A stretch of 64,000 nucleotides of DNA. Origin: Lachnospira multipara LB2003. GTDB lineage: Bacteria > Bacillota > Clostridia > Lachnospirales > Lachnospiraceae. Position 1 is the stretch's first letter. Each line of letters starts with the position of its first letter. Under the pieces are notes generated by a model. The model ran no database searches. It saw only the letters and a list, made by a program, of their open reading frames with translations, and had not been told where the DNA came from. Below, in pieces: positions 2,252 through 12,031 of this stretch. The position numbers were made by a program, and so were the translations under genes. The stretch covers positions 372,001-436,000 of the forward strand of contig NZ_JNKW01000001.1 of NCBI RefSeq assembly GCF_000702205.1, read 5' to 3'.

Positions 2252-2285
2252 ATAACTTCGTTAAACTGGACTTTAGCGAAGTTAT
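2252..2285. promoter_or_regulatory. 34-bp lox/dif-like palindrome upstream of the recombinase
   Basis: Two 13-bp arms, ATAACTTCGTTAA and TTAGCGAAGTTAT, flank an 8-bp centre ACTGGACT. The arms match in 12 of 13 positions. The outer nine bases on each side (ATAACTTCG and CGAAGTTAT) are those of phage P1 loxP, and the 13-8-13 layout is the same. It lies 44 bp before the start codon of a tyrosine recombinase. It may be that enzyme's recombination site, an autoregulatory operator, or only a 5' UTR hairpin. Confidence 0.55.
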
Positions 2286-2329: not shown

Positions 2330-3388
2330 ATGGCTGCTAATAAGAATTATGTTGAAACAATGAATAATAAATACGCTAAACAACTCAATAATCTTCTTGA
2401 TGAATTACCAGATTTTTGTGTTGAATACTTTGATAGTTTAGAATTTAATAAACAACCACGTACAAAAATTGCATATGCTCTAGATATAAAGGGATTTTTT
2501 GAATATCTAATCGATGATACAAAAAGATTTGCCAACTATAAGCTTAAGGATTTTGTTGTATCTGATTTAGATAAAATAACTGGTCAGGACATAACTAATT
2601 ATTTAAGATACATTAAATCCTATAATAGACATGGTAAAGACGTTCAAAATTCTGCTTCATCAGCAAAACGTAAATTATGTGCTTTAAGAAGATTCTACAA
2701 CTACTACTTCCGCTATGAATTTATCAAAACAAATCCAAGCTTAAAAGTAGATATGCCAGTCATTCATGAAAAGCCAATTGTACGTATGGAGCCTAATGAA
2801 GTTGCAGAATTTCTCGATAACGTTGAATCAGGCAACAAATTAACTTCTAATCAATTAGCTAAGCATGAAAAACTAAAAACACGAGATCTCGCCCTACTTA
2901 CACTTATGCTTGGTACTGGTATCCGTGTTTCAGAATGTGTAGGATTAGACATTGACGATGTGGATTTTGACAATGATAGAATCCATATCTATCGAAAAGG
3001 TGGCGCCGAAAGTTTCGTTTATTTTGGAGATGAAGTTCGATCTGCTCTTCAGGATTATTTAGTTGAACGTGAGAAAATTGAAGCTAAAGAAGGACATGAG
3101 AATGCGCTTTTTCTATCTAATGTAAAGAAACGCTTATGTGTACGCTCCGTTGAATTACTCGTAAAAAAATACTCACGTACTGTAACAACTGTTAAACACA
3201 TCACACCACATAAATTAAGAAGTACATATGGTACAAATCTCTACCAGGAAAGTGGCGATATCTACTTAGTTGCAGATGTTCTTGGACATAAAGATGTTAA
3301 TACTACTCGTAAACACTACGCAGACCTAGTAGATGAAAATAAACGTGCAGCAAGAAATCTTGTCAGACTAAGAAAAGAACAAAAATAA
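2330..3388 (+). CDS. XerS-like tyrosine recombinase
   Basis: This 352-residue integrase-family enzyme has an N-terminal SAM-like core-binding domain (about 30-135) and a C-terminal catalytic domain. The full catalytic set is visible: Arg199 in GTGIRVSE, Lys223 in RKGG, His294 and Arg297 in TPHKLR, His320 in LGHKD and the nucleophile Tyr330 in KHYADL. Length and the RDLALLTLMLGTG stretch resemble the single-recombinase XerS of streptococci more than XerC or XerD (about 300 residues). An AGGAGG site precedes the ATG. There are no phage genes nearby, so a housekeeping role such as chromosome-dimer resolution at a linked site is likely, but not shown. Confidence 0.8.
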   Translation: MAANKNYVETMNNKYAKQLNNLLDELPDFCVEYFDSLEFNKQPRTKIAYALDIKGFFEYLIDDTKRFANYKLKDFVVSDLDKITGQDITNYLRYIKSYNRHGKDVQNSASSAKRKLCALRRFYNYYFRYEFIKTNPSLKVDMPVIHEKPIVRMEPNEVAEFLDNVESGNKLTSNQLAKHEKLKTRDLALLTLMLGTGIRVSECVGLDIDDVDFDNDRIHIYRKGGAESFVYFGDEVRSALQDYLVEREKIEAKEGHENALFLSNVKKRLCVRSVELLVKKYSRTVTTVKHITPHKLRSTYGTNLYQESGDIYLVADVLGHKDVNTTRKHYADLVDENKRAARNLVRLRKEQK

Positions 3389-3452: not shown

Positions 3453-3786
3453 TTACGGAATATAGTATCTTAATCTGTGTTTTACCGTAAAGAGCGATTT
3501 TGGAAATAATACAAGTAATTTAAGCTTACGGTAAAACACAACAAAACATTATTTTTTTCTGTAAAATTTCCCTTCTAAATTCAAACATGAAAATATACTT
3601 TACAGAAAAAGTCCTAAAATAACCTTCTTTTCTGTAACAAAAATAAACATCTAAATAATTAGAAATTTATTACTACGGAAATTCCACAATAATGCGGCAA
3701 CTATACCGTAGTACAAAGAATTCATTAAAAGATTAGAAGATAGTGATTACGGAAATTCTAGTATTATATGACAATTTTACCGTAAT
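3453..3786. repeat. Cluster of inverted repeats downstream of the recombinase
   Basis: This 579-bp gap has no gene; several inverted repeats fill it. TTACGG (3453-3458) faces CCGTAA (3485-3490). The latter is part of a perfect 15-bp inverted repeat, TGTGTTTTACCGTAA (3476-3490) against TTACGGTAAAACACA (3526-3540). A 12-bp pair, TTTTTCTGTAAA (3554-3565) and TTTACAGAAAAA (3599-3610), has a third copy at 3628-3637. Two further TACGG...CCGTA stems, each with a 27-nt loop, lie at 3671-3713 and 3746-3786. The arms alternate, so each middle arm can pair either way. Confidence 0.7.
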
Positions 3787-3806
3787 GTTAAAATTCTTGT
3801 TCTAAA

Positions 3807-3881: not shown

Positions 3882-3964
3882 AATTGCAACAGTTACCAGA
3901 ACCTCATGCATTTAAGTGCGCTTCGCGCGGCATGAGGCTACATTGCAATCACAAGTGATTGCAA
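3882..3964 (-). repeat. Two-hairpin repeat, copy 4
   Basis: On the minus strand H1 is TTGCAATCAC/GTGATTGCAA (3943-3964), then TGTAG, H2 with CCTCATGC arms and a GCGCGAAGCGC core, GGTTC, and a remnant second H1 at 3882-3896. It starts three bases after the mgsA stop codon. Confidence 0.85.
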
Positions 3965-3967
3965 CAG

Positions 3968-4363
3968 TTACTGATATATTTGTCTCCATTCCATATCGCC
4001 ACGTTCAAGAGACTTTATTAATAATTCAGCTGTTGCTAAATTTGTTGCTAATGGAATATTATACATATCGCATAATTCACAAATATTATTAGGATCTGGT
4101 TCATGCATAAGCGGACCCTCTACTTCTCTTAAAAATATAACTAAATCCAATTGATTATGTTCAATCTGTGAGCACAATTGTTGATCTCCACCTAAATGTC
4201 CTGCCAAAAACTTATGAACCGAAAGGTTAGTAGCCTCCTCTATTAATCTTCCTGTTGTACCTGTAGCAAATAGTTGATTCTTATTTAAAATCCCCTTATA
4301 TGCTATGCAAAAATTCTGCATAAGCTTTTTTTTGGAATTATGTGCTATTAAACCAATGTTCAT
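3968..4363 (-). CDS. mgsA: Methylglyoxal synthase
   Basis: MgsA converts dihydroxyacetone phosphate to methylglyoxal and phosphate, a bypass that relieves sugar-phosphate stress. This 131-residue protein keeps the family landmarks: AHNSKK with His8, ATGTTGR for phosphate binding, the catalytic Asp60 in GGDQQ, His87 and Asp90 in HEPD, and NIPLATNLATAEL at the end. The segment normally read as FFxDPL is LREVEGPL here, an unusual variant. It follows rodA at the end of the cell-shape operon, separated from it by a hairpin repeat, and also has its own extended -10 promoter (4400-4405). Confidence 0.9.
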   Translation of the reverse strand: MNIGLIAHNSKKKLMQNFCIAYKGILNKNQLFATGTTGRLIEEATNLSVHKFLAGHLGGDQQLCSQIEHNQLDLVIFLREVEGPLMHEPDPNNICELCDMYNIPLATNLATAELLIKSLERGDMEWRQIYQ

Positions 4364-4405: not shown

Positions 4406-4457
4406 CCAATTTTTGAAAGAAATTTCATCCTTTTTTGTGTAATTTTTACAATTATTT

Positions 4458-4555
4458 CAACTGCTTCGCAGTTGCAACAAGTACTTAGAACCTCATGCAT
4501 TCAAGTGCGCTTCGCGCCGGCATGAGGCTACATTGCAACTGCATCGCAGTTGCAA
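4458..4555 (-). repeat. Two-hairpin repeat, copy 5 (covaried H1)
   Basis: Here both H1 hairpins use CAACTGC/GCAGTTG arms (4533-4555 and 4458-4474) in place of the CAATCAC/GTGATTG arms of other copies. H2 keeps the CCTCATGC and GCGCGAAGCGC form. The paired change on both sides of both stems argues for selection on, or copying of, the hairpin. It lies six bases after the rodA stop codon. Confidence 0.85.
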
Positions 4556-4561
4556 CAAAAA

Positions 4562-5737
4562 TTAACCCTTAAAATCAGGCGCAAATAAATCTTCATCTCT
4601 TTCTACCTTAGTATGTAAACCAACGTTTAATACGATACCCATTGATGTATATAAAGTTATAAGTGAAGTAATACCTGCACTAAAGAATGGCAAAGGAATA
4701 CCTGTATTAGGCAAAATCCAAGTAACAACACCAATATTAAAGAATGTTTGGAATCCTATGTAGGCTGCAATACCACAACAAATAAGTCGTCCAGCTAAAT
4801 TCTGAGCTTTCGCTGCCGTAATAAGACATTCCGTAACAATCAGGAATATAAGTAAAATTGTAAATACACTTCCAATAAAGCCTAGTTCTTCACCAATAAC
4901 TGCAAAAATAAAGTCATTTTGCGCTTCGGCAATGTAACCTGCATTTTTTAGTGAAGTCGAATCATCGTTATTAAGACCCTTACCTGACAACTGACCAGAT
5001 CCAATGGCCTGAACGGCATAATTTTGCTGATAAGTATCATCTTCACTTACTTCATCTTCTTCATCATCACCTACATCATAGTTACTGTTAATAAATGTCA
5101 TAATACGGTTTCTTTGATATTTCTTAACAATAACCTGATTTTCATCAAGAATGATATATGCAAGGACAAGAATAATTAATGGAATTGCAATCGCAAGTAT
5201 TCTACCAATAATTCTATATTCTAGTCCCGCACAATAAATTACCACAACACAAATTAAAAAAGTAAGTAATGTAGTAGATAAATCCGGCTGACTAAGAACA
5301 AGCAATAACTGGAAACCTGCAGTAGCAGCTAATACTCCAACAAATTTATAAGTATTAAGTTTTTCCTTATACATTTGAATAAGTTTTGCCAAAACAAGAA
5401 TCAATATAAGCTTAGTAAATTCCGATGGCTGAATTGTAAATGAGCCAATACCAAGCCATCTCTTAGCACCTTTAGCACTTACACCAACAACCTTTACAGC
5501 TAAGAGAAGAATGGTAGAAATTATGTACCATAACCAATAATATTTAATGATCCAATTATAATCTATAAAAGACACTACAATCATAACAACAAAAGACAGA
5601 AGCATACCAATGCCCTGTCTTGTTGTATATGATGAATTAGCACTATTCACAACTAAAAGCGAGTAAATACTTGTAATTACAAGTAATGCTACAAGTCTAA
5701 AATTATAAGATCTTAGTTGATATTTCTTAAAAAACAT
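4562..5737 (-). CDS. rodA: RodA-type SEDS peptidoglycan glycosyltransferase
   Basis: This 391-residue polytopic membrane protein of the SEDS family polymerises lipid II during cell elongation, paired with a class B PBP. Visible landmarks are GAKRWLGIGSFTIQPSEFTKL, written here as GAKRWLGIG and TIQPSEFTKL, then QPDLSTTLL, GLNNDDSTSLKNAGYIAEAQNDFIF in the large extracellular loop, and the C-terminal NTGIPLPFFSAG. An acidic stretch (VGDDEEDEVSEDD, near residue 230) lengthens the loop before that region. Its place behind mreBCD, PBP2 and minCDE supports RodA over FtsW. Confidence 0.88.
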   Translation of the reverse strand: MFFKKYQLRSYNFRLVALLVITSIYSLLVVNSANSSYTTRQGIGMLLSFVVMIVVSFIDYNWIIKYYWLWYIISTILLLAVKVVGVSAKGAKRWLGIGSFTIQPSEFTKLILILVLAKLIQMYKEKLNTYKFVGVLAATAGFQLLLVLSQPDLSTTLLTFLICVVVIYCAGLEYRIIGRILAIAIPLIILVLAYIILDENQVIVKKYQRNRIMTFINSNYDVGDDEEDEVSEDDTYQQNYAVQAIGSGQLSGKGLNNDDSTSLKNAGYIAEAQNDFIFAVIGEELGFIGSVFTILLIFLIVTECLITAAKAQNLAGRLICCGIAAYIGFQTFFNIGVVTWILPNTGIPLPFFSAGITSLITLYTSMGIVLNVGLHTKVERDEDLFAPDFKG

Positions 5738-5764
5738 TTGCGTACCTCTAATTATTTCAAGAAA

Positions 5765-6043
5765 CTATTCTCTAGAACCGCCTCTCATATCTTTAATAGG
5801 AATATTAGCAAATAGTGTTGGAACATTACCCGCATCCCCTTCTAGAGGAGTTGATGTAATCTGAATATCCAATCCATCTGTATCAATATCCATATATTTT
5901 GAAATAACTTCAATTATTTCGTTTTTAATTTTTTCCATAGTTTCAGGAGAACAATTAGTTCTATCAGAAACTAATAAAAATTGCAATCTATCTTTTGCTA
6001 CTTCAGAAGAACCCTTCTTCTTGAATAAATCTAATAAACTCAT
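5765..6043 (-). CDS. minE: MinE topological specificity factor
   Basis: MinE stimulates the MinD ATPase and restricts the MinCD division inhibitor to the poles. The start MSLLDLFKKK is the membrane-targeting helix of MinE. It is followed by KDRLQFLLVSDR (MinD-contact helix) and the C-terminal dimerisation domain. The ATG at 6041-6043 was chosen because GGGAGGG lies 5-11 bases upstream; an in-frame GTG 15 bases earlier would fall inside that site. The protein has 92 residues and is the next gene after minD. Confidence 0.9.
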   Translation of the reverse strand: MSLLDLFKKKGSSEVAKDRLQFLLVSDRTNCSPETMEKIKNEIIEVISKYMDIDTDGLDIQITSTPLEGDAGNVPTLFANIPIKDMRGGSRE

Positions 6044-6079
6044 AATATTCCCTCCCACTAATTTTAATTTTGAAAAATT

Positions 6080-6880
6080 TTATTTCTTGAATGCAGAAAC
6101 TAACTTCTTAAAGAAGCCATTCTTGCTGCTTAAATCAAGGAAAGGAACAGAATCACCAAGTATTCTCTTGCAAATATTAAAGTAAGCCTGACCTGAAAGT
6201 GAATCATCACCAACAAGTGGCTGTCCCTTATTAGTTGCAACAACTATATTCTCATCATCAGGAACTGCACCGATTAAATTAAGATGAAGAATATCATTAA
6301 CATCATCAATAGACATCATATCGCCATTCTTAACCATATCTACTCTAATTCTGTTAACAATTAAATCTTCCTTGCCTCTAAGACCATTAGAATCTAAAAG
6401 GCCAACAATTCTATCAGCATCACGAATAGCTGATAATTCTGGTGTTGTAACTACTAAAGCTCTATCAGCACCAGCAATGGCATTCTTAAAGCCCTGTTCA
6501 ATACCGGCAGGACAATCTAAGATAATATAATCGAAATTTTCAGGATCAGACTTAATCTCATCTAAAACCTTAATCATCTGTTCTGGAGTAACAGCATCCT
6601 TATCTCTTGTCTGTGCAGTAGGTAAAAGGTAAAGATTAGGACATCTCTTATCACTAATCATAGCCTTACGAACTGGAACAGTACCTTCAGCAACATCTAC
6701 AAGATTGTAAACGATTCTATTCTCCAAACCAAGAACAACATCAAGGTTTCTTAATCCTGTATCAGTATCAATCATAACAACTTTCTTACCTAATTTTGCA
6801 AGACCAGTACCAACATTAGCTGTAGTTGTAGTCTTACCAACACCACCTTTACCAGATGTAACAACAATTACTTCACTCAT
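6080..6880 (-). CDS. minD: Septum-site ATPase MinD
   Basis: MinD is a ParA/MinD-family ATPase that recruits MinC to the membrane to block polar septation. The 266-residue protein has the deviant Walker A SGKGGVGKTTTTAN (9-22), switch motif IDTDTGLRNLD, Walker B YIILDCPAG, and a C-terminal amphipathic membrane-targeting helix FFKKLVSAFKK. It lies between minC and minE in the usual order. Confidence 0.95.
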   Translation of the reverse strand: MSEVIVVTSGKGGVGKTTTTANVGTGLAKLGKKVVMIDTDTGLRNLDVVLGLENRIVYNLVDVAEGTVPVRKAMISDKRCPNLYLLPTAQTRDKDAVTPEQMIKVLDEIKSDPENFDYIILDCPAGIEQGFKNAIAGADRALVVTTPELSAIRDADRIVGLLDSNGLRGKEDLIVNRIRVDMVKNGDMMSIDDVNDILHLNLIGAVPDDENIVVATNKGQPLVGDDSLSGQAYFNICKRILGDSVPFLDLSSKNGFFKKLVSAFKK

Positions 6881-7019
6881 TCTTTATTTCCTCCCTAAGA
6901 AAAAATTATTAAAATAGATTCTATTTATTTCGTATGCCCCTCTGACATCAAAATACCACGTTGTTTAACACATATAATTATGCAAGAAAACAGATGTTTT
7001 TTCAAGCATTTTAGTAAAA

Positions 7020-7733
7020 TTAAAATTGAATATCTGATAAAACATCCTGTGAAAATTCTTCAATATAAATGTTATTATCATAAACATAAGCAATCTTAGG
7101 TTCAATAACAATGTCTTTCTTAGTTTTTCTGCCTTTTCTAATAGTATCTTCATTATCCTGACTTCTAGCAATAATTTCACCAATTTGGATCTGCATAGGC
7201 TTCATTTCTAAAGCATATACAAATGAGCCAGGATTCTCATTGCATCCAGCTGTAATATATCCCTTTAGGGAACCTAAAATCACTACATTATCACCAGCAA
7301 TAACCTTACCTCCTGGATTAACATCTCCAAGGATTACAGCACTACCTTCAGTTTCAAAAACCTGACCTGATCTTAATGTACCCTTGTAAAAATGACAAGG
7401 CTTATCAATTAAATCAAGTCTTGATTGAATGGCATCATCAACTATTTTGCTAATGCCATCTTCAATCATTCTAGAAGACTCGTTATTCTTATTAATTACA
7501 CAGACAATATTAAAGTCAGAAACTCTGCGTATAACATCAACAAGCTCATTTTCCTGAGCAGAAGTTAAATTACGGCCCTCAAAAGTAATAGCCAAATTAG
7601 CCTCTTTGAAGAATTTAGCTGAATCTCTAAATTTTTCTTCAAGTCTTTCTTTTAAATCTTCAAAGGAGCAATTCTTATCCAAAAGGACAGTAATCCCCTT
7701 CTTACCACCTTTAATAATTACTGAATTATCCAA
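7020..7733 (-). CDS. minC: Septum-site determining protein MinC
   Basis: MinC binds FtsZ and destabilises Z-rings where MinD places it. The 237-residue protein has an N-terminal FtsZ-binding domain and a C-terminal beta-helix domain beginning about residue 115 (KGTLRSGQ, then NPGGKVIAGDNVVILGSLKG). Those turn-rich repeats are typical of the MinD-binding and dimerisation half. It is the first min gene, downstream of PBP2 with a gap of 115 bp. Confidence 0.92.
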   Translation of the reverse strand: MDNSVIIKGGKKGITVLLDKNCSFEDLKERLEEKFRDSAKFFKEANLAITFEGRNLTSAQENELVDVIRRVSDFNIVCVINKNNESSRMIEDGISKIVDDAIQSRLDLIDKPCHFYKGTLRSGQVFETEGSAVILGDVNPGGKVIAGDNVVILGSLKGYITAGCNENPGSFVYALEMKPMQIQIGEIIARSQDNEDTIRKGRKTKKDIVIEPKIAYVYDNNIYIEEFSQDVLSDIQF

Positions 7734-7848
7734 TGTCTCACCTCATAAAAAATCTTATTAGATTTAAAGTAAACCTAAATTTACCCTTAATCCCCACATT
7801 TATTTATTATATTCTAATTTCAAACAAATAACCATAGAAAATTAAATT

Positions 7849-10602
7849 TTATTCAATTCCGTAGTATGCTTTGTAAATATCAGCTGAAAGAGCTATTGCA
7901 TTACCTGATGTATAACCATTTTGAATTGTTACAGCTACACAAACCTGTGGATTATCATAAGGAGCATAACTAATCATCTGAGCATGGTCAGGAGAAGTTT
8001 TCTTTTCCTGTGCTGTACCAGTCTTAGCAGCTATTTTTAAATTAAGCTTATTAACACCTGAATAAGATGCACCAGCAAGCTGCATACCAGTATGCACTGC
8101 ATCCCAAATCGAGCTATTAAGCTCAACCTTATTATTCACAGTTGCACTATTATCTCTTATTACATTACCATCAGGATCAGTAATCTTATCAACTAATGTC
8201 ATATTATAAACAGTACCTGAAGTTGCAAGGGTTGTAACATATCTTGCAAGGTTGAGAGTTGAGTATTTATGAGTACCCTGACCAATAGCTGATGCAATTG
8301 AGTCTGTTGATGAAGCCTGAGGTGTACCCTCTTCTATCTCAATACCTGCTGTAGTTGATAAGCCAAGCATATCTGAATAATTTTGTAAAATACTAGTACC
8401 ATAAGTGCTATTATATGAACCATTTTTCATAGCAAGCTGATATCCAATGTTGTAAAAGAATACGTTACATGAATCTCTAATAGCTTCTGTTACTGATTCT
8501 GAACCGTGACCCCAAGTCTGCCAACATTTTGGTGCTGGAGTTACTAAGTCAAAAGAACCGCCACAATAAAATGTTGATGATGTACTTATAAGTCCAGTAT
8601 TTAAACCAACAATTGATGAAACTAGCTTATAAGTTGAACCAGGAGCTATAAATGACTGTGTTGCTCTATTAAGAAGCGGACTAGCATTATCAGTTACAAG
8701 CTGATTGTAATACTTAGAATCAATAGTTCCTGAAAGCTTGTTGTTATCATAACTTGGGTATGAAACTAAAGCTAGGATATTACCTGAATTAGGGTCTGTA
8801 ACAACTGCAGAACCTGAGCAAGGTTCAAGAGCTAATTCACCAGGTGTAATAACCTTATTGCTTATAACATAAGAAATAAAGTCATAAGCTGACATAGAAC
8901 CATTTAATAATTCCTGATATCTTGAATTATCAGCATTTGGGTCTAGATAACCCTGTTCATATAATAATAAGCACAAATCATGTCCAGATACTGATCCCTC
9001 AGAAATCAAGTATTCATACATTTCCTTGTAGAAGGAAGTATCTGTATCAAGAGCTGAAATAATGTAATTTACTAATACATCATATGATTCCTGAAGAGAT
9101 GTATATTTTTCATCAGTTAACTTAGACATATCAATCCAGTTCTTAGAAATACCATAAGTTAAGAGCGATTGAAGGCTTACGTTACTATTATCCCCAATCC
9201 ATCTTGAATAAATATCATCGGATGTATCAACATTATTAGAATTAAATACGCCCTCTGTCTTAAGCATAGTGTAGATGTACCAAATATAACTCTGCTCTTC
9301 TTTTGATAAATCACTGTATCCAGTATTTCCTGTTGTTAATTCAGATCTAACCCAATCAAGGACCTGAGCTTTCTTTGACAAAAATGCATTATAAACATTC
9401 TTAGCTGTTTCAGTATCTGAATTTGCAATCTGATTTAATGAAATAAGATTATTATCAACAAAAGCATAATAAACCTCATTAGCAGTTACAAAAACATTGC
9501 TAACCTCGCCACTTGAATTATATGAATACTTTGTAGTACCTGAAGTTAAATGACTAGAAAGAATTGAAACCAATTCATTTTCAATAGCATCATAGGTAGC
9601 CTTTTGTAAATTAACATCAATAGTTAAGTAGACATCATTACCTGCAGTTGCATCTTTTTCAGAAATAACCTGAGTAATTCTACCTACAGTATCAACATAA
9701 ACAGTTTGAGAGCCCTTAGTACCAGCTAACTCACTTTCAAGAGAAGCCTCAATACCGGACTTACCAATAACGTCATTACTTTCATACTGATCTCCCATTT
9801 CTTCAAGTTCAGTTGAAGAAATTGTACCAGTGTAGCCTAAAATCTGTGAAACATACTTGCCATATGTGTATCTTCTAATGTATTTTTCCTCAACCTGGAT
9901 GCCGACTAATTCATCAGAATTTTCCATAATCGCAGCCATTGTTGCATCAGAAACCTCATTAGCAATTGTAAATGACATATATCTATTATATGAATTAGCA
10001 GACATATAACGTCTAAGATTTACAATAACTAATGCATGTTCAACGCTATAATCATCAAGAGAAACTTCGTATTTATCAAGATAATAATCAAATAAATCCT
10101 TGGCTGAAACACTCTTTTGTTCATCAGTTAATGCAGCAATACTTGCCACGCCATAAGAATCTCTAATAAAACGAAGAAGTGTTGTACCTTCTACATTATA
10201 TGAATAAACACCATTTTCATATACAATTGGAAAATCGTTAGTATATTCATCATTGTTTTTCTCAATAATATCAAGAGCCTTATCTATACTTGAATTAATA
10301 GACTTATTTTTAGCTGAAACGCTGCTATAAGAACCACTATCACTTATAGTTACAGCATAAGCTAAGTCATTAAAAGCAAGTAAAACACCGTTTTTATCAA
10401 AAATTCGACCACGAGTTGCAGTAACACTCATGTCTTTTTGAATAGAACTATTAAGATTTGAAACGTATGAATTACCATTAATAATCTGTAAATTAAATAA
10501 TCTAGTTATTAGGATGCTAACTAAAATCACAAAAACCAATACAAGAGGAAAAATTCTTGATTTTAGTAAGCTAAGTATATAATCAAATATTTCCTTCATC
10601 AT
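7849..10602 (-). CDS. mrdA: Class B penicillin-binding protein PBP2/MrdA, long form
   Basis: This is the transpeptidase of the elongation machinery, working with RodA and MreCD. At 917 residues it is much longer than the usual 600-700. A signal anchor lies at about 17-36 and the PBP dimerisation region with ATRGRIFDKNG follows. The active site is APGSTYK (Ser near 653), SCN in DSCNVFF, and KTGTAQ near 861. The extra length is an insertion of roughly 250 residues between about 330 and 590, rich in Ser, Tyr and Asp. A GAGGTG site fits the first of two adjacent ATGs. It overlaps mreD by 20 bp, which suggests translational coupling. Confidence 0.92.
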   Translation of the reverse strand: MMKEIFDYILSLLKSRIFPLVLVFVILVSILITRLFNLQIINGNSYVSNLNSSIQKDMSVTATRGRIFDKNGVLLAFNDLAYAVTISDSGSYSSVSAKNKSINSSIDKALDIIEKNNDEYTNDFPIVYENGVYSYNVEGTTLLRFIRDSYGVASIAALTDEQKSVSAKDLFDYYLDKYEVSLDDYSVEHALVIVNLRRYMSANSYNRYMSFTIANEVSDATMAAIMENSDELVGIQVEEKYIRRYTYGKYVSQILGYTGTISSTELEEMGDQYESNDVIGKSGIEASLESELAGTKGSQTVYVDTVGRITQVISEKDATAGNDVYLTIDVNLQKATYDAIENELVSILSSHLTSGTTKYSYNSSGEVSNVFVTANEVYYAFVDNNLISLNQIANSDTETAKNVYNAFLSKKAQVLDWVRSELTTGNTGYSDLSKEEQSYIWYIYTMLKTEGVFNSNNVDTSDDIYSRWIGDNSNVSLQSLLTYGISKNWIDMSKLTDEKYTSLQESYDVLVNYIISALDTDTSFYKEMYEYLISEGSVSGHDLCLLLYEQGYLDPNADNSRYQELLNGSMSAYDFISYVISNKVITPGELALEPCSGSAVVTDPNSGNILALVSYPSYDNNKLSGTIDSKYYNQLVTDNASPLLNRATQSFIAPGSTYKLVSSIVGLNTGLISTSSTFYCGGSFDLVTPAPKCWQTWGHGSESVTEAIRDSCNVFFYNIGYQLAMKNGSYNSTYGTSILQNYSDMLGLSTTAGIEIEEGTPQASSTDSIASAIGQGTHKYSTLNLARYVTTLATSGTVYNMTLVDKITDPDGNVIRDNSATVNNKVELNSSIWDAVHTGMQLAGASYSGVNKLNLKIAAKTGTAQEKKTSPDHAQMISYAPYDNPQVCVAVTIQNGYTSGNAIALSADIYKAYYGIE

Positions 10603-11116
10603 AATTCACACCTCTTTTCTTTTTGTTTACAATATTGAGTTTGTCATTAAGATATTCAAGTCCTTTATATAAAATAAAAGTGCAAATGCATGTATATACC
10701 ACTTCTGGCATAATAATACGAGATATGAAAAATCCTGCATTTAATCTGTTATGTAATAGGAAATTACCAATATAGCCAAGGAAGCCATAAATAAAATCCG
10801 ATACAAAAACCATAGCAACAGGGATTAAAATTTCGTACTTTTCATACTTTTCGTAGAAAAATCCAGCTATAAAGCCAGCATAAATAAATACTAAAGCACT
10901 AAAGCCAAAAAGATTTGTAGAATATAAATCATACATTACCCCTGAAAAAAATCCAACAAACATACCTTCATTTCTACCATTTAAGAAACCAAAAACTACT
11001 GGCAAGATAATAAGAAAATTAGGCACAATACCACCAATTGCTATTACTCTTCCAATAGAAACTTGTAAAAGATAAAAAACAAGAATAAGAACAAGTTCAG
11101 TTATTTTTCTCTTCAT
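10583..11116 (-). CDS. mreD: Rod shape-determining membrane protein MreD
   Basis: This 177-residue protein is almost entirely hydrophobic with about five membrane segments, as expected of MreD, which connects MreC and PBP2 in the elongasome. Typical stretches are NFLIILPVVFGFLNGRNEGMFVGFFSGVMYDL in the first half, here cited only by its GFLNGRNEG core. Sequence conservation of MreD is low and the call relies partly on its place between mreC and PBP2. An inverted repeat with a T-run lies just upstream. Confidence 0.88.
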   Translation of the reverse strand: MKRKITELVLILVFYLLQVSIGRVIAIGGIVPNFLIILPVVFGFLNGRNEGMFVGFFSGVMYDLYSTNLFGFSALVFIYAGFIAGFFYEKYEKYEILIPVAMVFVSDFIYGFLGYIGNFLLHNRLNAGFFISRIIMPEVVYTCICTFILYKGLEYLNDKLNIVNKKKRGVNYDEGNI

Positions 11117-11138
11117 AGATCCACCTCAAAACAAAAAT

Positions 11139-11169
11139 AGGGAAAGGCAAATAAATAAAACCTTCCCCT
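11139..11169 (-). terminator. Intra-operon terminator or attenuator between mreC and mreD
   Basis: On the minus strand AGGGGAAGG pairs with CCTTTCCCT across a 13-nt loop, and ATTTTTGTTTT follows. It would reduce transcription into mreD and the genes after it without stopping it fully, letting MreB and MreC be made in excess. Confidence 0.5.
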
Positions 11170-11185
11170 GGAAATTTAATATTAT

Positions 11186-12031
11186 TTACGTAGTTGTCTT
11201 TAAATCAGTAATAATTAATACTTCCTGTAAATTATTAAAATCCACAGCTGGAATTAAATAACCTGATTGTGTTAGATTATTAGAGTCTGGGCTAACCTCT
11301 GATGCGTATCCAATAAGTATGCCCTGTAAATATTTATCGCTAATATTAGATGTAACAATCTTGTCACCATCTCTTACAGTTGTACTAGCACTAAAGTGAT
11401 TTAAATGAACTTTACCTGTATCCATAAGTTCTACATCACCCTCTACCATACAAGTCTGGTTATTATCAATAATCATACCACTTACATAACTCTTATCTTC
11501 TACAATGGTTTTTACAATAGAATAATTAGGTCCAACCTCTGTTATAATACCAACTAAACCACCACTTGCTACAACATTCATGTCGACGCTAATACCATCA
11601 TTAGATCCCTTATCAAGAGTTAATGAAGAATACCAGTTATCAGACGAAATACCAATAACATTAGCACCAACTTTATTATATTGTGAATATTGATTATCAA
11701 GAGCATAAAGTTTTCTTAATCTATCTAACTCATAAGTATCTTGTTTAAGTAAATTATTTTCTTCTGTCAAAGCATCAACTTGACTTTGTAATTCTTCATT
11801 CTTAGCTAAAACGTCTGAAATTTCCTGCATATTATCGATTTTATCAGAAATCCATAAGCCGATGTTGTTCATACCCTTTTGAAGAGGAACAACAACATAA
11901 GAAATAGCTGTTTGAAGTGGTTTCGTCAAAGAATCAGTAAAAAACGAAGTTCCAATAAAGAATAAACATATTACAGTTAAGCCAATAAGAATATATTTTG
12001 ATGTAAGAAAAGATTCAAGTTTCTTTCTCAT
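11186..12031 (-). CDS. mreC: Rod shape-determining protein MreC
   Basis: MreC is a bitopic membrane protein that scaffolds PBP2 and RodA outside the membrane. The 281-residue protein has one N-terminal membrane helix (about 13-32), a coiled coil (about 65-105, with EISDVLAKNEELQSQVDAL-type heptads) and a C-terminal beta domain containing NVIGISSDNWYSSLTLDKG and the GLVG turn of the family. It follows mreB by 24 bp. Confidence 0.92.
   Translation of the reverse strand: MRKKLESFLTSKYILIGLTVICLFFIGTSFFTDSLTKPLQTAISYVVVPLQKGMNNIGLWISDKIDNMQEISDVLAKNEELQSQVDALTEENNLLKQDTYELDRLRKLYALDNQYSQYNKVGANVIGISSDNWYSSLTLDKGSNDGISVDMNVVASGGLVGIITEVGPNYSIVKTIVEDKSYVSGMIIDNNQTCMVEGDVELMDTGKVHLNHFSASTTVRDGDKIVTSNISDKYLQGILIGYASEVSPDSNNLTQSGYLIPAVDFNNLQEVLIITDLKTTT

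Follow-up and report, generated by a model that had tools for sequence, protein, structure and literature searches.

Classical dif sites have been predicted in 97 of 100 single-chromosome Firmicutes by Kono et al. (PMC3025954), and single-recombinase systems are ascribed, in a review, to streptococci and lactococci, epsilon-proteobacteria and archaea (PMC5357621). According to the same review, the streptococcal and lactococcal site difSL spans 31 bp, with an 11-bp centre between the arms TTTCCGAAAA and TTTTCTTGAAA. For cells with more than one large replicon, Val et al. report that in Proteobacteria the chromosomes sharing a cell have dif sites with divergent centres, one exception apart, and argue that identical centres would allow fusion (PMC2533119); enterobacterial replicons larger than 250 kb are reported all to carry an active XerCD site (PMC11724359). 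Here we describe a 34-bp near-palindrome beside a XerS-like recombinase gene in a 64-kb stretch of Lachnospira DNA (the window), which very probably, to judge from its sequence and context, serves as the chromosome dif site for an Xer system with a single recombinase. An earlier note on the same DNA had offered this reading, and it is supported by a core conserved in 59 of 83 loci, a position at the GC-skew switch and an exact palindrome that is unique in the genome. No published account of this site was found among the literature matches listed, a body of text whose coverage leaves subscription papers mostly, and preprints wholly, outside.

A near-palindrome adjoining a recombinase gene

The site (2252–2285, forward strand, as are all features below) consists of a left outer arm, ATAAC (2252–2256), a left conserved half-site, TTCGTTAAA (2257–2265), a 6-bp centre, CTGGAC (2266–2271), which by comparison with Xer systems is the probable region of strand exchange, a right conserved half-site, TTTAGCGAA (2272–2280), and a right outer arm, GTTAT (2281–2285), to which the left outer arm is complementary. 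On re-reading of the window, its 34 bases and the 44-bp gap to the ATG at 2330 proved exactly as first described, but the 13-8-13 architecture given at that time does not hold: the conserved unit is five variable plus nine conserved bases, six free bases, and nine conserved plus five variable bases. The window site thus has the two arms and 6–8-bp centre of a near-palindromic Xer/dif site. When up to three mismatches are allowed, the pattern ATAACTTCG-N16-CGAAGTTAT is found a single time in the window and in none of 100 shuffles; at zero mismatches a genome-wide search finds this one place and no second copy of the exact palindrome.

The downstream gene (2330–3388) encodes a tyrosine recombinase of 352 amino acids, identified as XerS-like from profile score, PDB sequence matches, motifs, alignment and an AlphaFold model. 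Motifs and an alignment with XerD confirm that all catalytic residues are present (R199, K223, H294, R297, H320 and Y330), and these six are invariant in a 28-sequence alignment of recombinases; judged from sequence, this is a conserved, catalytically intact Xer recombinase. The best curated model was XerS, with a score of 198.1 bits that lies below the XerS cut-off of 267 bits. XerH was among the PDB sequence matches, where it scored more weakly than XerD or XerA, and the best fold matches of the AlphaFold model were XerA, XerD, an integron integrase and XerH. That model (mean pLDDT 78.6, pTM 0.55) was used for fold class only, since pLDDT is below 50 at residues 301–305 and 307–332, which cover H320 and Y330, and TM-scores to solved Xer chains are below 0.6. 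In one relative, two recombinase paralogues (G024:C2:103258 and 107052, L181), 47% and 55% identical to the recombinase of the window, lie about 3 kb apart near one site.

In a search confined to XerD, no protein exceeded the curated cut-off in any of the 22 Lachnospira genomes; XerD above cut-off was found in 11 of 61 relatives, all outside the genus, so that the XerS-like enzyme is not the sole Xer protein everywhere. The FtsK gamma domain is present in all 22 Lachnospira genomes, and a search for FtsK-orienting octamers in 400 kb of leading strand returned only general purine and coding bias. A strict pattern for the Bacillus subtilis-type dif, run without a positive control, matched in three of 61 relatives and in none from the genus.

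Three related intergenic stretches (2075–2180, 3883–3971 and 4450–4561) share a repeated element that has palindromes of the TTGCAATCAC type and, as its core, GCGCTTCGCGC; two further similar elements were seen by eye at 690–830, and the intergenic stretch after xer (3476–3800) holds recurring TTACGGTAAAA/TTTTACCGTAA inverted repeats.

Conservation of the core

Of 83 loci examined in Lachnospiraceae and further Clostridia, 59, the window's own among them, have the core TTCGYTAAA-N6-TTTARCGAA at 16 or more of 18 positions upstream of the XerS-like orthologue. In none of the 83 loci did the second-best match exceed 14 of 18. These loci comprise 30 from a genome search (the window's own and 29 relatives) and 53 from named Clostridia, with three contigs, to judge by their length, represented in both sets (L011/L040, L012/L041 and L015/L042) and a spirochaete locus (L093) removed before scoring. 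The core was missing at this threshold from 24 of the 83 loci in flanks scanned for 1.5 to 4 kb at most, some of them short, and sites in these relatives may have diverged or lie elsewhere. The outer bases are variable yet tend to stay complementary: at outward positions 1–4, 70, 82, 79 and 77 of 97 distinct sites were complementary, compared with shuffled means of 40, 52, 58 and 42, phylogeny not being removed. Across the family, a relaxed pattern matched exactly in 65 of 150 genomes, in single copy in all but four, and 85 had no exact match, their sites perhaps likewise diverged or placed elsewhere; 18 of the 22 Lachnospira genomes matched. The TTCG-type core is absent from G014, G018 and, as described below, G013.

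Position at the GC-skew switch

A dif site should sit where GC skew changes sign, the check proposed in the earlier note, and the conserved site does so in the window's contig, in L. eligens and at most of the testable sites in the family and order. In the genome taken as L. eligens ATCC 27750 (G001), whose 2,144,190-bp contig C1 we take to be the closed chromosome, the site lies at 1,024,259 of 2,144,190. GC skew there is +0.16 to +0.25 to the left (eleven sampled 20-kb windows) and −0.13 to −0.29 to the right (nine), and the cumulative maximum within a 40-kb stretch falls 1.1 kb from the site. The window's contig (genome G000) behaves likewise, with +0.12 to +0.27 to the left (14 sampled windows), −0.18 to −0.27 to the right (seven), values near zero about 2–4 kb either side of the site and a cumulative maximum, within the stretch analysed, 2.8 kb from it. 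At both sites the strand bias of open reading frames switches together with the skew.

The wider test used 35 sites hand-picked from the relaxed-pattern matches, each lying over 10 kb from where its contig starts, and one from the order (G057) located by its known xer; 34 of these 36 were testable, two loci having too short a right flank. Skew was positive on the left in all 34 and negative on the right in 32 (counting L290, at −0.00; exceptions L297 and L298), compared with a switch at the midpoint in one of 58 control windows without a site, all of them from G001 and G000. An xer orthologue with at least 46% identity lies within 10 kb of 29 of the 35 family sites, and of the G057 site by construction. 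Inspection by eye of the window also showed a run of cell-shape and division genes (4562–12031), FtsW/RodA-, MinE-, MinD-, MinC-, PBP2-, MreD- and MreC-like, starting about 2 kb from the dif-like site.

Second sites with different centres

At least two copies of the site are present in 16 of the 22 Lachnospira genomes. In L. eligens the second lies on the 627-kb megaplasmid NC_012780 (626,744 bp), as it does in a second strain, so that chromosome and megaplasmid each have a single exact match; no site was found on the 60-kb plasmid at up to two mismatches, and no recombinase is annotated within 10 kb of the second site. By the presence of its site, the megaplasmid fits the enterobacterial rule for replicons above 250 kb. 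The second site in the window's genome (C10:81364) has the same core arms and the centre CACGGA in place of CTGGAC; large open reading frames on both sides run toward it, skew passes from +0.10 to −0.23, and an alr gene 6–7 kb away is 75% identical, in a search of a plasmid collection only, to a L. eligens megaplasmid gene about 8 kb from the site there. We infer that the draft genomes, too, contain a second large replicon, the copies lying on separate contigs.

When one copy on the xer contig was paired with one other copy per genome, the centres differed at three to five of six positions, in either orientation, in all 16 genomes. A third copy, in G002 (C26:5171, L097), runs against this pattern, its centre TTAGAC differing at only two positions from the CTGGAC of the chromosomal site in that genome; its 12-kb contig also carries, by eye, an IS30-type transposase-like gene. 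Identity of the arms between paired sites is partly by construction, since the search pattern fixed most arm bases, but the four arm positions that it left free agree in 14 of the 16 pairs (exceptions G005 and G016). Outer arms differ at a mean of 3.0 of 10 positions within genomes versus 4.4 between them, a contrast reached in none of 20,000 permutations, which, with phylogeny not removed, we take as supporting evidence only.

The megaplasmid has a local skew maximum 11 kb from its site. On NC_012780.1, which also carries gltX, parAB lies at 290,562–292,588 and the dif-like site at 340,496, and skew is negative in nearly all sampled windows except for about 30–40 kb between the two. This suggests very unequal replichores with the dif-like site close to the origin, a pattern that we liken to the unidirectional chromids of Pseudoalteromonas (PMC7858055). 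Among Butyrivibrio megaplasmids, pCY186 has one match at one mismatch, and pCY360 of B. proteoclasticus (361 kb) has none closer than two mismatches, a level at which three of five records match the reversed control as well, and encodes its own related recombinase.

Considered together, these patterns give us high confidence in an explanation in which the palindrome is the chromosome dif site and the same XerS-like enzyme serves a second-replicon site with a different centre. Two recombinase molecules would bind the two 9-bp half-sites together with the outer bases; in a dimer that recombination has made of two sister chromosomes, the two copies of the site would pair at the division septum, and strand exchange across the 6-bp centre, probably activated by FtsK, would return two monomers. 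The same enzyme would act at the site on the second large replicon, the different centre keeping the replicons from fusing.

Altered arms in one Lachnospira genome

No TTCG-type core is found in G013, where the closest counterpart of the window's recombinase shows 41% identity. The gene for it is preceded by a perfect 14-6-14 palindrome, ATAACGCCGATAAA-TCCTGC-TTTATCGGCGTTAT, and a genus-wide search with this variant core found a second perfect copy in G013 at C9:61829, with the centre TCTCAG. The C9 copy is preceded by LysM and DEAD-helicase genes, as is the window's site (47% and 58% identity), and has a skew of +0.09/−0.24 on its two sides; no xer was detectable within the 20 kb examined. 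The xer-linked copy is on C22. In searches of plasmids only, one stretch of C22 came closest to the L. eligens megaplasmid (79.7% over 28% of the query), and the stretch next to the site came closest to a plasmid of Agathobacter (64.6% over 33%). With up to one mismatch, the variant core occurs in one of 150 family genomes, G013 itself; elsewhere in the genus it is exact only in G017. There, a TTCG-type site (C1:116180, the genome's second) and a GCCG-type palindrome (C1:116326) stand 146 bp apart (L099), and the latter may be a terminator or a relic site. The GCCG-type palindrome was also considered as a dif site in six viral contigs, but five of these look like ordinary terminators with A- and T-rich flanks and they were not counted.

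A tentative scenario, possible although we would not wager on it, is that a single XerS-like enzyme in Lachnospira prevents two large replicons from being joined by means of the 6-bp centre of otherwise matching dif sites, and that G013 lost its chromosomal recombinase gene, the role passed to a diverged recombinase that may be encoded on a megaplasmid, and the arms of both sites were rewritten together from TTCGTTAAA to GCCGATAAA; the enzyme replacement is read from one draft genome. If true, G013 would represent a natural specificity swap of chromosome-maintenance recombination, with the chromosome dependent on the second replicon. The G013 case also provides naturally paired specificities of enzyme and site that can be assayed for orthogonality, and diverged pairs of the Cre type make useful tools.

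Other readings of the palindrome

An alternative interpretation is that the palindrome, bound by the enzyme as an operator or folded into an RNA stem in the leader, controls expression of the recombinase gene and has no role in recombination. The site adjoins the gene and a promoter-like TTGTAA-17-TATAAT (2212–2240), itself weak given two such elements found versus 1.7 expected in shuffles, lies just 5′ with its −10 ending 12 bp before the palindrome, so that the site would fall in the transcript leader, which is predicted to form a 14-bp stem at the palindrome (z = −2.17; 3 of 200 shuffles fold as well). We nevertheless consider this quite unlikely, because the 59 conserved sites include, besides 47 within 250 bp of the matched gene start, three at 250–1000 bp and nine further upstream, these twelve being 0.25 to 3.8 kb from the gene, and because 31 clearly asymmetric sites face the gene 16 one way and 15 the other. 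Conservation that is independent of orientation and distance argues against a leader-RNA role as the main function, predicted stem or not. Nor does the reading account for the second L. eligens site, around which no recombinase is annotated for 10 kb, or for the six family sites without an orthologue within 10 kb, where the skew switch is clear at L192, L193, L293 and L303, weak at L177 and absent at L298.

The differing orientation of the site relative to the gene between species would also suit an attachment or inversion site of a mobile element, or a phase-variation switch, tended by the adjacent integrase, and related recombinases, some annotated as XerS, are found on many plasmids, while the tight core occurs in 90 viral-contig stretches from IMG/VR (L194–L283) versus seven for the reversed pattern. 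This, too, we regard as improbable, and slightly more so than an operator: recombinase matches were found in 59 of 61 genomes searched, the window's own included (the weakest being other integrases), no second inverted copy lies nearby, and the position at the skew switch is recurrent. As to the viral-contig sites themselves, 11 of 80 inspected by eye have the clostridial outer arms AACTA..TAGTT, and in three of the 90 stretches there is a gene for a similar recombinase; the centre CTTGTC, common to 26 of 30 clostridial chromosome sites, is found in none of 95 sites, a hint of phage or plasmid dimer-resolution sites.

Descent of the site from a Cre/loxP system acquired from a P1-like element can be dismissed as next to impossible, because the outer nine bases at each end, although identical to the ends of P1 loxP, as the earlier note stated, owe their likeness to the variable outer five bases and a shared TTCG, ATAAC..GTTAT being kept in only three of the 59 sites, the window's among them, and because no Cre chain appears among the 11 PDB sequence matches and Cre ranks below XerA, XerD and XerH among the best 50 fold matches. 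The site is therefore not a loxP relative, and the resemblance is best seen as the convergence that the earlier note had suspected.

Comparison with known systems

As a chromosome dif site, the palindrome and its enzyme would provide a concrete, testable pair for a major group of gut and rumen bacteria, would show where replication probably terminates in draft genomes, and would join XerS, XerH and XerL as a further lineage with a single recombinase. The system resembles XerS/difSL of streptococci and lactococci in having a single recombinase of about 350 amino acids and a site that adjoins its gene; XerS is also the best model for the window's recombinase, but the score falls under the XerS cut-off, and the Lachnospira core is 9-6-9 with arms other than those of difSL. 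XerH/difH of Helicobacter and Campylobacter likewise pairs a single recombinase with a nearby site, and XerH appears among both sequence and fold matches, although as a weaker sequence match than XerD or XerA. With P1 Cre/loxP, the shared features are the outer nine bases at each end and the tyrosine recombinase fold; the resemblance rests on variable bases, and the window's enzyme is closer to Xer.

As a single-recombinase lineage recognised only recently, XerL of Legionellales is the nearest precedent (PMC9765430): a single recombinase acts with a dif site of long uninterrupted inverted repeats, and in Coxiella the recombinase is encoded on a plasmid and can act at sites of both chromosome and plasmid, a state comparable to that proposed for G013. 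It belongs to another lineage, however, and XerL and dif are more than 400 kb apart in L. pneumophila, whereas Lachnospira-type sites mostly adjoin the gene. For the paired sites, the nearest likeness is XerCD with dif1 and dif2 of Vibrio cholerae, where non-homologous co-resident replicons carry divergent dif centres that are proposed by Val et al. (PMC2533119) to prevent fusion. V. cholerae uses two recombinases and Lachnospira apparently one, and the differing centres described here would represent an independent, apparently single-enzyme case of the V. cholerae rule that co-resident replicons carry different dif centres.
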